From assembly GCA_031281585.1 (NCBI GenBank), contig JAITFE010000125.1:1-59148 (forward strand): a stretch of 59,148 nt of DNA. Reading direction: 5' to 3'. The stretch's first letter is position 1; each line of letters opens with the position of its first letter. The notes beneath the pieces were generated by a model. The model did not search any database. It saw only the letters and a program-made list of their open reading frames with translations, and had not been told where the DNA came from. The position numbers and the translations under genes were made by a program. The DNA is from Bifidobacteriaceae bacterium. GTDB lineage: Bacteria; Actinomycetota; Actinomycetes; Actinomycetales; WQXJ01. Positions 9,620-12,389 of the stretch are shown one piece after another.

Positions 9620-10750
9620 CTAGCGGAGCCCGACGGGGCGGCTCAGGGCCAGCTCGATCAGCTCCCCCACCAGGTCGGAGTAGCTCAGGCCGGAGGCCAG
9701 CCACATGCGCGGGTACTGCGAGATCGGGGTGAAACCGGGCATGGTGTTGATCTCGTTGATCACCAGCGGGTCGGCGGCGGTCGGATTGTAGAAGAAGTCG
9801 ACCCTGGCCAGGCCCTCCGCCCCGATCGCGCGGAAGGCGCGCGCCGCCATGTCCTGAACCGCCGTCAGCACGTCCGGCGGCAGGTCGGCGGGGCACAGCA
9901 GATCCGCGCCGGCCGCGTCGAGGTACTTGGCCTCGAAATCATAGAAGTCGTGGCCGCCCCTGACCACGATCTCCGAAGGCAGAGAGGTCCGGGGCACCCC
10001 GCCTCCGGGCGACCCGAGCACGGCGCATTCGATCTCCCGGCCGTCGGCGGCCTGCTCCACCAGGACGCGCGGATCGCACCGGCGCGCCTGTTCGACCGCC
10101 TCCTCCAACTGGCCGGCGCGGTCCACTCTTGAGATGCCGAGCGAGGAGCCGGCCCGGCACGGTTTGACGAAAACCGGCCAGCCCAATTCCCCAATCCTGC
10201 AGGCGGCCAGGCCGTCGGCCGGGGACTGGTCGGGCCCCAGGACAACATAAGGCTGGACGGGCAGGCCGTGGGCCTCCAGAACGCACTTTGCATACCCCTT
10301 GTCCATGCCGAGCGCGCTGGCCAGGACCCCCGCCCCGACATAGCGCTGGTCGGTCAGCTCCAGCAGCCCCTGAATGGTCCCGTCCTCCCCGAACGGGCCG
10401 TGGAGCAATGGGAAGACCACGTCGATGGGACCCAGGGGGGCGAGGGCGCCGTCGCCGCCCACCAGGCGCCATTCTGCGGAGCCGGCGTGGGCGGGAGGCA
10501 GCACCTCGGGGCCTTCGCCCGAAACCTCGGGGAGGCGGCCGTCCGCCGCCCTCAACGGCCCCGGATCGTCCGGGGCCAGCGACCACCGGCCCGCGCGGGT
10601 GATCCCGATGGGCACTGGCTCAAACCGGTCCCGGTCGATCGCCTCCATGATCGACCCGGCCGTCAAACAGCTAATCGAATGCTCGCCGGAGCGACCGCCA
10701 AACAGAAGGGCCACCCGGATACGCGGGGCGCGGGTCTCAGTCATCGCCAT
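9620..10750 (-). CDS. ddl: D-alanine--D-alanine ligase
   Basis: Ddl joins two D-alanines for the tip of the peptidoglycan stem peptide; MurF, encoded at 21094, adds the product. Visible: LFGGRSGEHSIS at the N-terminus, LHGPFGEDGTIQG, VKPCRAGSSLGIS (ATP-grasp lid), and NEINTMPGFT near the C-terminus with metal-binding Glu/Asn. 376 residues from ATG 10750. TTG 10753 and ATG 10744 are alternatives, none with a clear ribosome site. It is separated from clpP2 by a large palindrome and is probably transcribed independently. Confidence 0.95.
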   Translation of the reverse strand: MAMTETRAPRIRVALLFGGRSGEHSISCLTAGSIMEAIDRDRFEPVPIGITRAGRWSLAPDDPGPLRAADGRLPEVSGEGPEVLPPAHAGSAEWRLVGGDGALAPLGPIDVVFPLLHGPFGEDGTIQGLLELTDQRYVGAGVLASALGMDKGYAKCVLEAHGLPVQPYVVLGPDQSPADGLAACRIGELGWPVFVKPCRAGSSLGISRVDRAGQLEEAVEQARRCDPRVLVEQAADGREIECAVLGSPGGGVPRTSLPSEIVVRGGHDFYDFEAKYLDAAGADLLCPADLPPDVLTAVQDMAARAFRAIGAEGLARVDFFYNPTAADPLVINEINTMPGFTPISQYPRMWLASGLSYSDLVGELIELALSRPVGLR

Positions 10751-10838
10751 CAAGGCTACCCGTCGGCATGTGTCCGGGAGGTTGCCGCGCCAGCGCCGGT
10801 CAGGGGTTTGCCGGGAGCCGGCGACCCGCCTTTGCCCA

Positions 10839-10898
10839 AAGAAACGGGGACGGTACCTTTTTCCGGCTTGCCGGAAAAAGGTACCGTCCCCGTTTCTT
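10839..10898. repeat. Perfect 60-bp palindrome, REP-like
   Basis: Two exact 29-base arms (10839-10867 and 10870-10898) are separated by only TT. Each arm holds GAAACGGGGACGGTACC and a run of five T or five A next to CCGG. It begins two bases after the clpP2 stop codon, between clpP2 and ddl. It would form a very stable hairpin in RNA on either strand, so it may end clpP2 transcription or stabilise its 3-prime end. The sequence resembles repetitive extragenic palindromes tied to REP-associated (Y1) transposases; that link is from memory. Confidence 0.75.
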
Positions 10899-10900
10899 GG

Positions 10901-11587
10901 TTACTTGTCGACCGTCTTGCGGGACTTCAGGACCTGGTCGATCATCCCGTATTCCAGGGCCTGTTCGGCGGTCAGGATTTTGTCCCGCTCAATGTCGTCC
11001 CGGACCTGCTCCGGCGTCCGGTTGGAATGCTTCGCGATGGTGTCCTCCAGCCATTGGCGGATCCGCAGGATCTCGTTGGCCTGGATCTCAATGTCGCTGG
11101 CCTGGGCGTAGGCGCCGCCCTCGAAAGCCGGCTGGTGGATCAAGACGCGGGCGTTCGGCAACGCCAGGCGCAGGCCCGGCGTGCCGGCGGCCAGCACCAC
11201 GGCGGCGGCGGAGGCCGCCTGGCCCAGGCAGACCGTCTGAATGCGCGGGGTGATGTACTGCATGGTGTCGTAAATCGCGGTCAAAGCCGTGATCGAGCCG
11301 CCCGGCGAGTTGATGTACATGGTGATGTCGCGGTTCGGGTCCTGCGACTCCAACACCAGCAACTGCGCCATGATGTCGTCCGCCGAGGCGTCGTCGATCT
11401 GCACGCCCAGGAACACGATCCGGTCTTCGAACAGCTTCGCGTAGGGGTCTTGCCGCTTGAAGCCGTAGGGCGTGCGCTCCTCGAAAGAGGGCAGCACGTA
11501 CCTGGCCTGGGGCGTGGGCGCGGCGCGGCCGCCAAAGGCCAACGGCGCCAAAGAGCCGTAAGTCGAGCGCGGGTCAATGCCGGTCAT
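10901..11587 (-). CDS. clpP2: ATP-dependent Clp protease proteolytic subunit 2
   Basis: A serine protease subunit that forms a mixed tetradecamer with ClpP1 and works with ClpX or ClpC. Catalytic triad seen: S126 in [11 protein letters not shown]151 in LIHQPAFEG, and D202 in [10 protein letters not shown]. At 228 residues it is longer at the N-terminus than ClpP1, as usual for actinobacterial ClpP2 propeptides. Its ATG overlaps the clpP1 stop by four bases, so the subunits are coupled. No ClgR-box could be confirmed by eye. Confidence 0.95.
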
Positions 11588-12222
11588 GACTGCTCCTCCC
11601 CTGAGGCCTTCTTCTTCGACTGGGCCCGGACGACCGCCTCATGGGTCACCACCTTGTCGATGAAGCCGTAGTCCAGCGCCTCGGTGGCCGTGAACCAGCG
11701 GTCCCGGTCCGAGTCCCGGTTGATCTCCTCGACCGTCTTGCCGGTCTGCTGGGCGATCAGCTCCGCCAACTGGCGCTTCATGTGCAAGATCAACTGCGCG
11801 TTGATCCGGATGTCGGTGGCGGTGCCGCCAATCCCGCCGGATGGCTGGTGCATCATCACCCGCGCGTGCGGGGTCGCGTAACGCTTGCCCTTCGCCCCCG
11901 AGGACAACAGGAACTGGCCCATTGATGCGGCCATTCCGACCGCCACCGTGGCCACGTCCGGCTTGATGTACTGCATGGTGTCGTAGATCGCCATGCCGGC
12001 CGTGATCGACCCGCCCGGGGAGTTGATGTAAAGGTAGATGTCGCGCTCCGAATCCTCCGCCGCCAGCAGCATCATCTGGGCGCAGATCGCGTTCGCGTTC
12101 TCGTCGCGGACCTCGCTGCCGAGCCAGATGATGCGTTCTCTGAGCAGGCGGTTGAAGATCGAATCGCTCAATCCCATGCCTTGGCCGTCGGGCGCGGCCA
12201 GCGTCGGGGACTCCAAGCTCAT
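11584..12222 (-). CDS. clpP1: ATP-dependent Clp protease proteolytic subunit 1
   Basis: 212 residues with the triad S100 (VGMAASMGQ), H125 (MMHQPSGG) and D174 ([11 protein letters not shown]). It pairs with ClpP2 to form the active barrel, usually essential in actinobacteria. The ATG at 12222 is chosen because CAGGAG lies about eight bases upstream; the TTG at 12255 would add 11 residues lacking homology. A palindrome separates it from tig, so it probably has its own promoter in 12223-12335, a stretch where I see no gene. Confidence 0.95.
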
Positions 12223-12335: not shown

Positions 12336-12389
12336 CCAAACGTTGCCCGATGCCGTTTGGCCACCCAAACGGCATCGTCCAACGTTTGG
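12336..12389 (-). terminator. Long imperfect palindrome after tig
   Basis: 25-base arms (12336-12360 and 12365-12389) match at all but two positions around a CCAC loop; both arms begin CCAAACGTTG and end CGTTTGG in palindromic sense. It starts 12 bases after the tig stop. It probably forms the transcript end of tig. It could also be a REP-like unit, as it shares design but not sequence with 10839-10898. No clear T-run follows. Confidence 0.55.

Follow-up and report, generated by a model that had tools for sequence, protein, structure and literature searches.

The locus described here comprises two Clp protease genes, a D-alanine-D-alanine ligase gene and a long palindrome that lies between clpP2 and ddl (Table 1). 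It belongs to a window of 59,148 nucleotides, the whole stretch of DNA analysed, which is contig C125 of a 3.98-Mb genome in 169 contigs. Pfam identifies the clpP2 product as a Clp protease, and the '2' in the name rests on the position of the gene after a second Clp protease gene; clpP2 orthologs are 93–98% identical in eight of the nine same-genus genomes. As an earlier note on this DNA had described, the palindrome is perfect and stands directly after clpP2: its arms (10839–10867 and 10870–10898) are 29 nt each and 100% complementary around a 2-nt centre. Because the clpP2 stop codon occupies 10901–10903, just 2 nt separate the gene from the palindrome; on the other side, the ddl start (10744) is 94 nt away.

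Table 1. Features of the clpP2–ddl region, in window coordinates.
Feature	Coordinates	Strand	Remark
ddl, D-alanine-D-alanine ligase, downstream of the palindrome	9620–10744	-	Pfam Dala_Dala_lig_N and _C
Block GGGTAGCCTTGATGGCG immediately upstream of ddl	10745–10761	-	Also in G001, G004 and G005, one base changed
60-nt perfect palindrome (29 + 2 + 29), one dimeric copy of the GGGGACGGTACC repeat	10839–10898	.	
Left unit of the dimer, core GGGGACGGTACC at 10846–10857	10840–10867	+	
Unpaired centre, TT at the clpP2 site	10868–10869	.	Central dinucleotide differs among dimers
Right unit of the dimer, inverted, core at 10880–10891	10870–10897	-	
clpP2, Clp protease proteolytic subunit	10901–11587	-	Pfam CLP_protease
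clpP1, second Clp protease gene, upstream of clpP2	11584–12222	-	Pfam CLP_protease

The earlier judgement that such a structure cannot be accidental agrees with a chance expectation of ∼7 × 10−10 perfect palindromes of this kind in the window (loop of at most 50 nt, calculated from base composition with the length and G+C content of the window). Twenty inverted repeats were listed in the window with a minimum of 18 nt and arms at most 200 nt apart, and apart from the palindrome the sole fully complementary one is a pair of 18-nt arms separated by 150 nt. RNA of the palindrome transcribed with clpP2 has a predicted folding energy of −56.8 kcal/mol (z −12.1; none of 200 shuffles is equally stable), and the plus-strand DNA one of −35.5 (z −13.4). 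A further inverted repeat in the window, an imperfect 25-nt one (92%) at 12336–12389 between clpP1 and the trigger-factor gene, is possibly the terminator of the latter.

A long G+C-rich hairpin close behind a stop codon, with a T-rich stretch after it, makes the palindrome resemble a Rho-independent terminator. Six of the eight matches to a terminator-like consensus between 9000 and 13000 belong to the palindrome structure, on both strands (shuffles, 2.8). One explanation of the locus is accordingly that a plain intrinsic (or bidirectional) terminator of clpP2 has been kept by selection and has no mobile origin. The terminator-like score of the stem and tail on either strand speaks for this explanation; the T tails themselves, TTTCTT and TTTCTTT, are short and interrupted. 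We return to it below, together with the positions of the other copies.

The palindrome is one of many copies in its genome. The 12-nt core GGGGACGGTACC has 183 matches there (84 + 99), as opposed to three for a reversed-string control. Each of the nine same-genus genomes contains 0 or 1 copy, and among 98 other genomes searched (which include nine of the same genus and eight of the same family) the core occurs in 25, with a maximum of five copies. A 22-nt pattern of the repeat, AAAYGGGGACGGTACCTNTTTC, had no exact match in the genome_contigs and viral_contigs collections, and blastn against plasmids and phages returned no match to the repeat; all these collections may omit the genome under study. 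Rfam gave nine matches at E up to 1, every one far under its gathering score. The core string was not found in the literature searched by text, nor was literature found on repetitive extragenic palindromic (REP) elements in Actinobacteria with a tyrosine transposase; for RAYT combined with Bifidobacteri, the matches listed were unrelated titles alone ('rayt' is probably a name there). The low counts in other genomes and the lack of matches in the collections suggest that the burst of this repeat is, as far as searched, private to one genome or species. Two side observations concern short strings of this kind. A distant genome of the same order (G074, locus L087, C2:667911–668032) carries four GGGGACGGTACC cores in direct orientation with starts 35–40 bp apart. 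Another string, CGATGCCGTC, occurs at window positions 2971, 9132, 27328, 34936 and 34979 and in other fetched regions of the same genome (165 occurrences in 778 kb, 36 of them intergenic); the reversed-string control is unfair in its case because the reversed string holds a stop codon, and CGATGCCGTC may be a further repeat or a codon effect.

To describe the repeat family, units were extracted from 100 fetched regions, some of which are repeat-free background, plus the window. The yield was 56 tight inverted dimers plus 70 units of other kinds, which together account for 182 of the 183 cores. The repeat unit is about [A/G][A/G]AAA[C/T]-GGGGACGGTACC-T-N-TTTC, and two facing units form an element of typically 58–60 bp, predicted to fold as a single long hairpin, whether it is RNA or single-stranded DNA. 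Conservation spans ∼6 bases before the core to ten after it, and the farther flanks of the two sides agree at chance level. In 37 of 59 inverted pairs the cores are spaced by 22 nt, which gives 58 bp counted from position −6 to −6. By type, 100 sites comprise 51 dimers, 29 singles and 20 clusters. Many units also have a weak mini-hairpin stem of their own (GGAAA...TTTCC). In one unusual dimer (L228, 3001–3033), two units overlap at GGTACC and form a ∼32-bp palindrome without the usual spacer.

A short constant core in many copies, arranged as inverted pairs after genes, is also what a signal for DNA uptake or protein binding might look like. Neisseria and Haemophilus have DNA uptake sequences that are often paired behind genes, and such words are usually common to a whole genus. 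Here the same-genus genomes are nearly devoid of the core, the conservation extends well past it, and a transposase gene is framed by the repeat (see below), so that we hold an uptake-type or binding signal to be highly improbable.

The two arms of a dimer vary together. Among the 37 dimers with 22-nt spacing, the arms agree at positions −5, −1 and +13 in 33, 35 and 36 cases (17.7, 19.7 and 13.4 expected), and the two central bases differ from dimer to dimer. Thirty-one of the 56 dimers have at most one mismatched pair, centre included. Dimers are also better conserved than other units: TNTTTC is retained in 96 of 111 dimer arms (one arm at a contig end was dropped) versus 38 of 70 other units. 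In the part of their paper drawn on here (PMC3116915), Bertels and Rainey based the definition of REPINs as mobile doublets on properties that include greater conservation of doublets than of singlets, folding into a hairpin and compensatory changes. The dimers described above resemble REPINs, and the GTAG REPs that go with RAYT transposases, in each of these respects and in their set spacing, to the extent that these are covered in the portions of PMC3116915 and PMC8266576 that we cite.

Arms that agree within a dimer where dimers differ from one another, around a free centre, could also be produced on the spot, if hairpin-templated (strand-switching) synthesis converted a lone unit into a perfect palindrome and the dimer itself did not move. 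The 50 distinct sequences among the 56 dimers fit this route as well. However, compensatory changes on both sides of published REPINs were read, in the pages cited, as the mark of mobile doublets (PMC3116915), five dimer sequences recur two or three times, and whole dimers occupy two intragenic spots where relatives have nothing. We consider local synthesis unlikely. One of the recurrences, on contigs C25 and C112 (L209 788–867 and L260 6629–6709), probably represents one locus held twice, although it is counted as two dimers in all tallies. The two copies share their flanks, and they differ in the 3-nt centre (TCT versus AGA) and in one flanking base pair; this reflects either strain variants in which the palindrome was flipped in place or an assembly effect.

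Bases outside the two boundaries match for 2, 3, 4 and 5 nt in 4, 1, 0 and 2 of the 56 dimers, with no consistent target-site duplication, which is a counterpoint to mobility, as is the fact that mobility is read from a single genome of the species. GTAG or CTAC within 8 nt of a boundary occurs in three of 56 dimers, not above the background rate of 0.08. CGTC, the unpaired tag at one stem end of CGTC REPs, or its complement GACG stands close to a boundary without being part of the core in 13 of the 56, by raw count.

The copies are distributed unevenly with respect to genes, whose positions were taken from a home-made codon-usage gene caller trained on the fetched regions. One hundred sites divide into 38 in tandem gaps, 35 in convergent gaps, seven in divergent gaps, 14 within ORFs and six at edges. 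The convergent gaps are overrepresented, with 35 of 80 sites as against 45 of 288 gaps of at least 80 nt (p = 2 × 10−9). Moreover, 55 of 74 sites lie at most 20 nt from a facing stop codon, compared with 16% of random positions in repeat-free gaps. Published REPs likewise lie near 3′ ends, in convergent and unidirectional arrangement, and some supply a stop codon or lie inside ORFs, according to the relevant part of PMC3733652; our repeat shares with GTAG REPs the preference for positions behind genes and in convergent gaps and the occasional supply of a stop codon.

Two dimers are inserted in frame in conserved genes. The first, in a gene for a tyrosine recombinase (XerC/D-like), encodes ∼18 residues, and the insert is missing in all seven same-genus genomes read (four recombinase loci failed the motif filter; L299, L300 and L304 were read separately, and L306, from another genus, was left out). 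The second is in the gene for an M50 membrane protease (RseP-like) and is absent in six of six aligned orthologs, five from the genus and one from the family, in a comparison that left out L317 and the partial loci L313 and L318–L323; because linker length varies between species at this site, the absence is weaker evidence. A Maf protein of uncertain start has a third dimer at its N-terminus. In-frame palindromic inserts of ∼20 residues in conserved proteins recall the Rickettsia palindromic elements and intragenic REPs, as these are treated in the section of PMC3733652 consulted. In contrast to these elements, few of the copies described here are intragenic and a candidate transposase is framed by the repeat in the same genome. 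In long ORFs (L279 1995–2150, L249 3081–3254 and L252 3063–3263), repeats of the unit encode NGDGTYF or ETGTVPI peptides, with a spacing of 63 nt in L279, and may be in-frame expansions of the repeat.

The site beside clpP2 is also empty in relatives. The end of clpP2 was read in 14 of 16 loci (not in L188 and L193). In the three genomes where ddl adjoins clpP2 (G001, G004 and G005), the palindrome is absent (3/3), and the spacers are too divergent to place the insertion point to the base. A block directly before ddl, GGGTAGCCTTGAKGGCG, is common to all four genomes, our own included. This shared block suggests start signals belonging to ddl alone and a palindrome inserted at the junction of two transcription units; the block is perhaps the promoter or start region of ddl itself. 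The positions behind stop codons and in convergent gaps would suit a selected terminator. Against that explanation, terminators of independent origin would have no need of a common 12-nt core, here present 183 times, and the repeat also flanks a transposase gene, sits in frame within genes and is missing beside clpP2 in three relatives. Unlike Rho-independent terminators, the palindrome is a near-identical multi-copy sequence with mobile features. A terminator kept by selection, with no mobile origin, thus seems to us improbable.

Two genes for Y1 transposases (Y1_Tnp), on contigs C137 and C142, are present in the genome outside the window, and both exceed the Pfam cut-off. The C137 protein, P0003, is 200 aa long (Y1_Tnp score 43.3 bits, cut-off 23), and its gene is framed by the repeat: a dimer upstream ends 142 nt before the ATG, and an inverted unit downstream supplies the TAG stop. 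At E ≤ 0.001, Pfam recognizes Y1_Tnp alone in both proteins and no helix-turn-helix domain. P0003 ends in RRKGGRPRKGGADGRK, a short basic GRPRK tail, and the tail of the C142 protein looks helix-turn-helix-like, by eye only. A sequence search of the PDB with P0003 returned no match at E ≤ 0.001. In an alignment of 87 proteins that includes these two, the HUH histidines are kept in 86 and 87 proteins and the tyrosine of YIHLNP, which we take to be the catalytic tyrosine of the Y1 transposases, in all 87; 52 of the 87 have GRP in their tails. With the repeat on both sides of its gene, the resident C137 transposase probably spread the GGGGACGGTACC repeat. The second Y1 gene (L031, G000:C142:12759–13316) has another repeat at its flanks, GGGGACGGTCCTTTCTT. 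When up to two mismatches are allowed, this repeat gives 25 matches (control, 1), of which 15 form direct pairs or triples ∼70–110 bp apart.

The idea, put forward in the earlier note, of a mobile palindrome that landed at a gene end is supported by the repeat-flanked Y1 gene, the 183 cores and the empty clpP2–ddl sites of all three relatives. The refuting condition set in that note, one occurrence in the genome, none in relatives and no RAYT gene, does not hold, given the 183 cores and the two Y1 genes, one of them flanked by the repeat.

Related transposases are found elsewhere in the genus. P0003 has matches at E 1 × 10−10 or better in six genus genomes, its own included, with eight proteins in all. 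In a tree of these eight and the first 40 of the other relatives, the genus proteins form one group (99/92). By transposase, the nearest named relative is the metagenome-assembled genome Bifidobacteriaceae bacterium isolate Pcl387_bin33, and the repeats flanking its gene match those of G005. Repeats with a GGGGAC box flank the Y1 genes of G005 (GGGGACGGTCCC), G004 (GGGGACAGGCCCC) and G009 (GGGGACGTACTTGG). Allowing up to one mismatch, the G009 repeat occurs 20 times in G009 and 0–4 times in the other eight same-genus genomes searched. Several of these (L324–L331) are palindromic dimers, GAGCCACGGGGACGTACTTGGTGGCTC, laid out as in our genome with quite different stems, and every unit is itself a small hairpin with the stem GAGCCAC...GTGGCTC. 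G004 holds 14 copies of its own repeat type, and those read are single units. The three copies in G005 all adjoin its Y1 gene. In G003, a single copy of the G005-type repeat is present, with no gene match. For the Y1 gene of G002 no flanking repeat was seen, and one Y1 gene of G009 is at a contig end. The three copies in G005 and the lack of a flanking repeat in G002 indicate that the link between Y1 gene and repeat does not always yield amplification.

It may be that species of this genus keep private pairs of Y1 transposase and palindrome, in which related transposases each recognize a variant of their own built on a fixed GGGGAC box in the place of GTAG, and which have repeatedly given rise to private REPIN-like populations (GGGGACGGTACC in our genome, GGGGACAGGCCCC in G004 and GGGGACGTACTTGG in G009), whose palindromes later become gene-end hairpins and in-frame peptide inserts. 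We regard this generalization as evenly poised between right and wrong.

The association extends well beyond the genus. With L098 excluded as a duplicate of L091, 87 relative loci remain, 74 of them with enough flank; they come from many phyla, with our two genes and the other genus loci counted in. Exact inverted repeats of at least 12 nt surround the Y1 gene in 48 of the 74 loci, versus 3–7 of 72–73 mismatched pairs, and such a repeat holds GGGG[A/T]C in 34 of the 74, versus 0–3 in mismatched pairs. These two counts agree with the TIRtron class of Di Nocera et al. The earlier note had supposed a widespread repeat. For the sequence itself this does not hold, given the lack, in the collections searched, of an exact match to AAAYGGGGACGGTACCTNTTTC and of any blastn match; it is the less strict GGGG[A/T]C box that occurs widely next to Y1 genes. 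A box placed in a hairpin loop was also considered as a feature of the class. A stem of at least five occurs in 7 of 34 loci (0.21), and 200 control shuffles had a median of 0.12 and a maximum of 0.23; the mini-hairpin was rejected as a class feature because this count is not beyond chance.

TIRtrons consist of a Y1 gene framed by inverted repeats, some of which share the sequence GGGGWSAS and form dimers and clusters, as set out in the portion of PMC3733652 used here. The same portion provides further parallels: our Y1 gene is framed by inverted repeats that carry a GGGG[A/T][C/G] box as many TIRs do, and the repeats have multiplied as singles, dimers and clusters, some of them self-complementary. 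Our core, GGGGACGG, is one base off, matching seven of the eight GGGGWSAS positions (G for A at position 7), and the G004 repeat GGGGACAG matches all. In contrast to TIRtrons, our repeat has 183 cores in one genome and 0–1 in same-genus genomes. Twenty of 26 TIRYTs have been placed in TnpAREP subclass 2.1, with helix-turn-helix tails, in the relevant section of PMC6006769; as far as that section describes the subclass, P0003 departs from it in its GRPRK tail and in having no Pfam helix-turn-helix domain. GTAG REPs are a poorer match. The repeat behaves like a REPIN, but a GGGGAC box takes the place of the GTAG tag that REPs carry at one end of the stem, and both transposases, at 69.3 and 66.8 bits, are under the cut-off of 80 of the NCBIfam RAYT model (NF047646). 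These comparisons support the GGGGAC-box TIR repeats (TIRtron/TIRYT) as the right reference class, rather than the GTAG REPs, and the palindrome family is a further instance of this already published kind.

Very probably, then, the palindrome represents a short mobile repeat of the non-autonomous type, present here as a dimer, with the HUH/Y1 transposase of C137 as its most likely mover and with copies kept mainly behind stop codons. The units on both sides of its gene mark this transposase as the best candidate. On the model proposed for REPINs and their transposases, the dimer would leave and enter DNA in the form of a single-stranded hairpin, and the copies that persist would mostly be those in places where damage is slight, directly after stop codons. 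The clpP2 copy lies between clpP2 and the start region of ddl, where its G+C-rich stem and the short T-rich stretch on both strands could act as a bidirectional, terminator-like 3′ hairpin and so affect the clpP2 and ddl transcripts. The chances seem about even that termination or stabilization of the transcript at clpP2 is a side effect of the palindrome.

Biochemical work on REP-like spread and on recognition by the transposase has so far, in the part of PMC8266576 cited, concerned the GTAG repeats of Proteobacteria. The matched transposase–repeat pairs within one genus combine different repeats with a common GGGGAC box and, in two species, with a shared arrangement of the dimer, and would offer a natural swap experiment on recognition. 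The effect of the element on its host is visible in a burst confined to one genome and in a recombinase and a membrane protease that carry inserts in frame.
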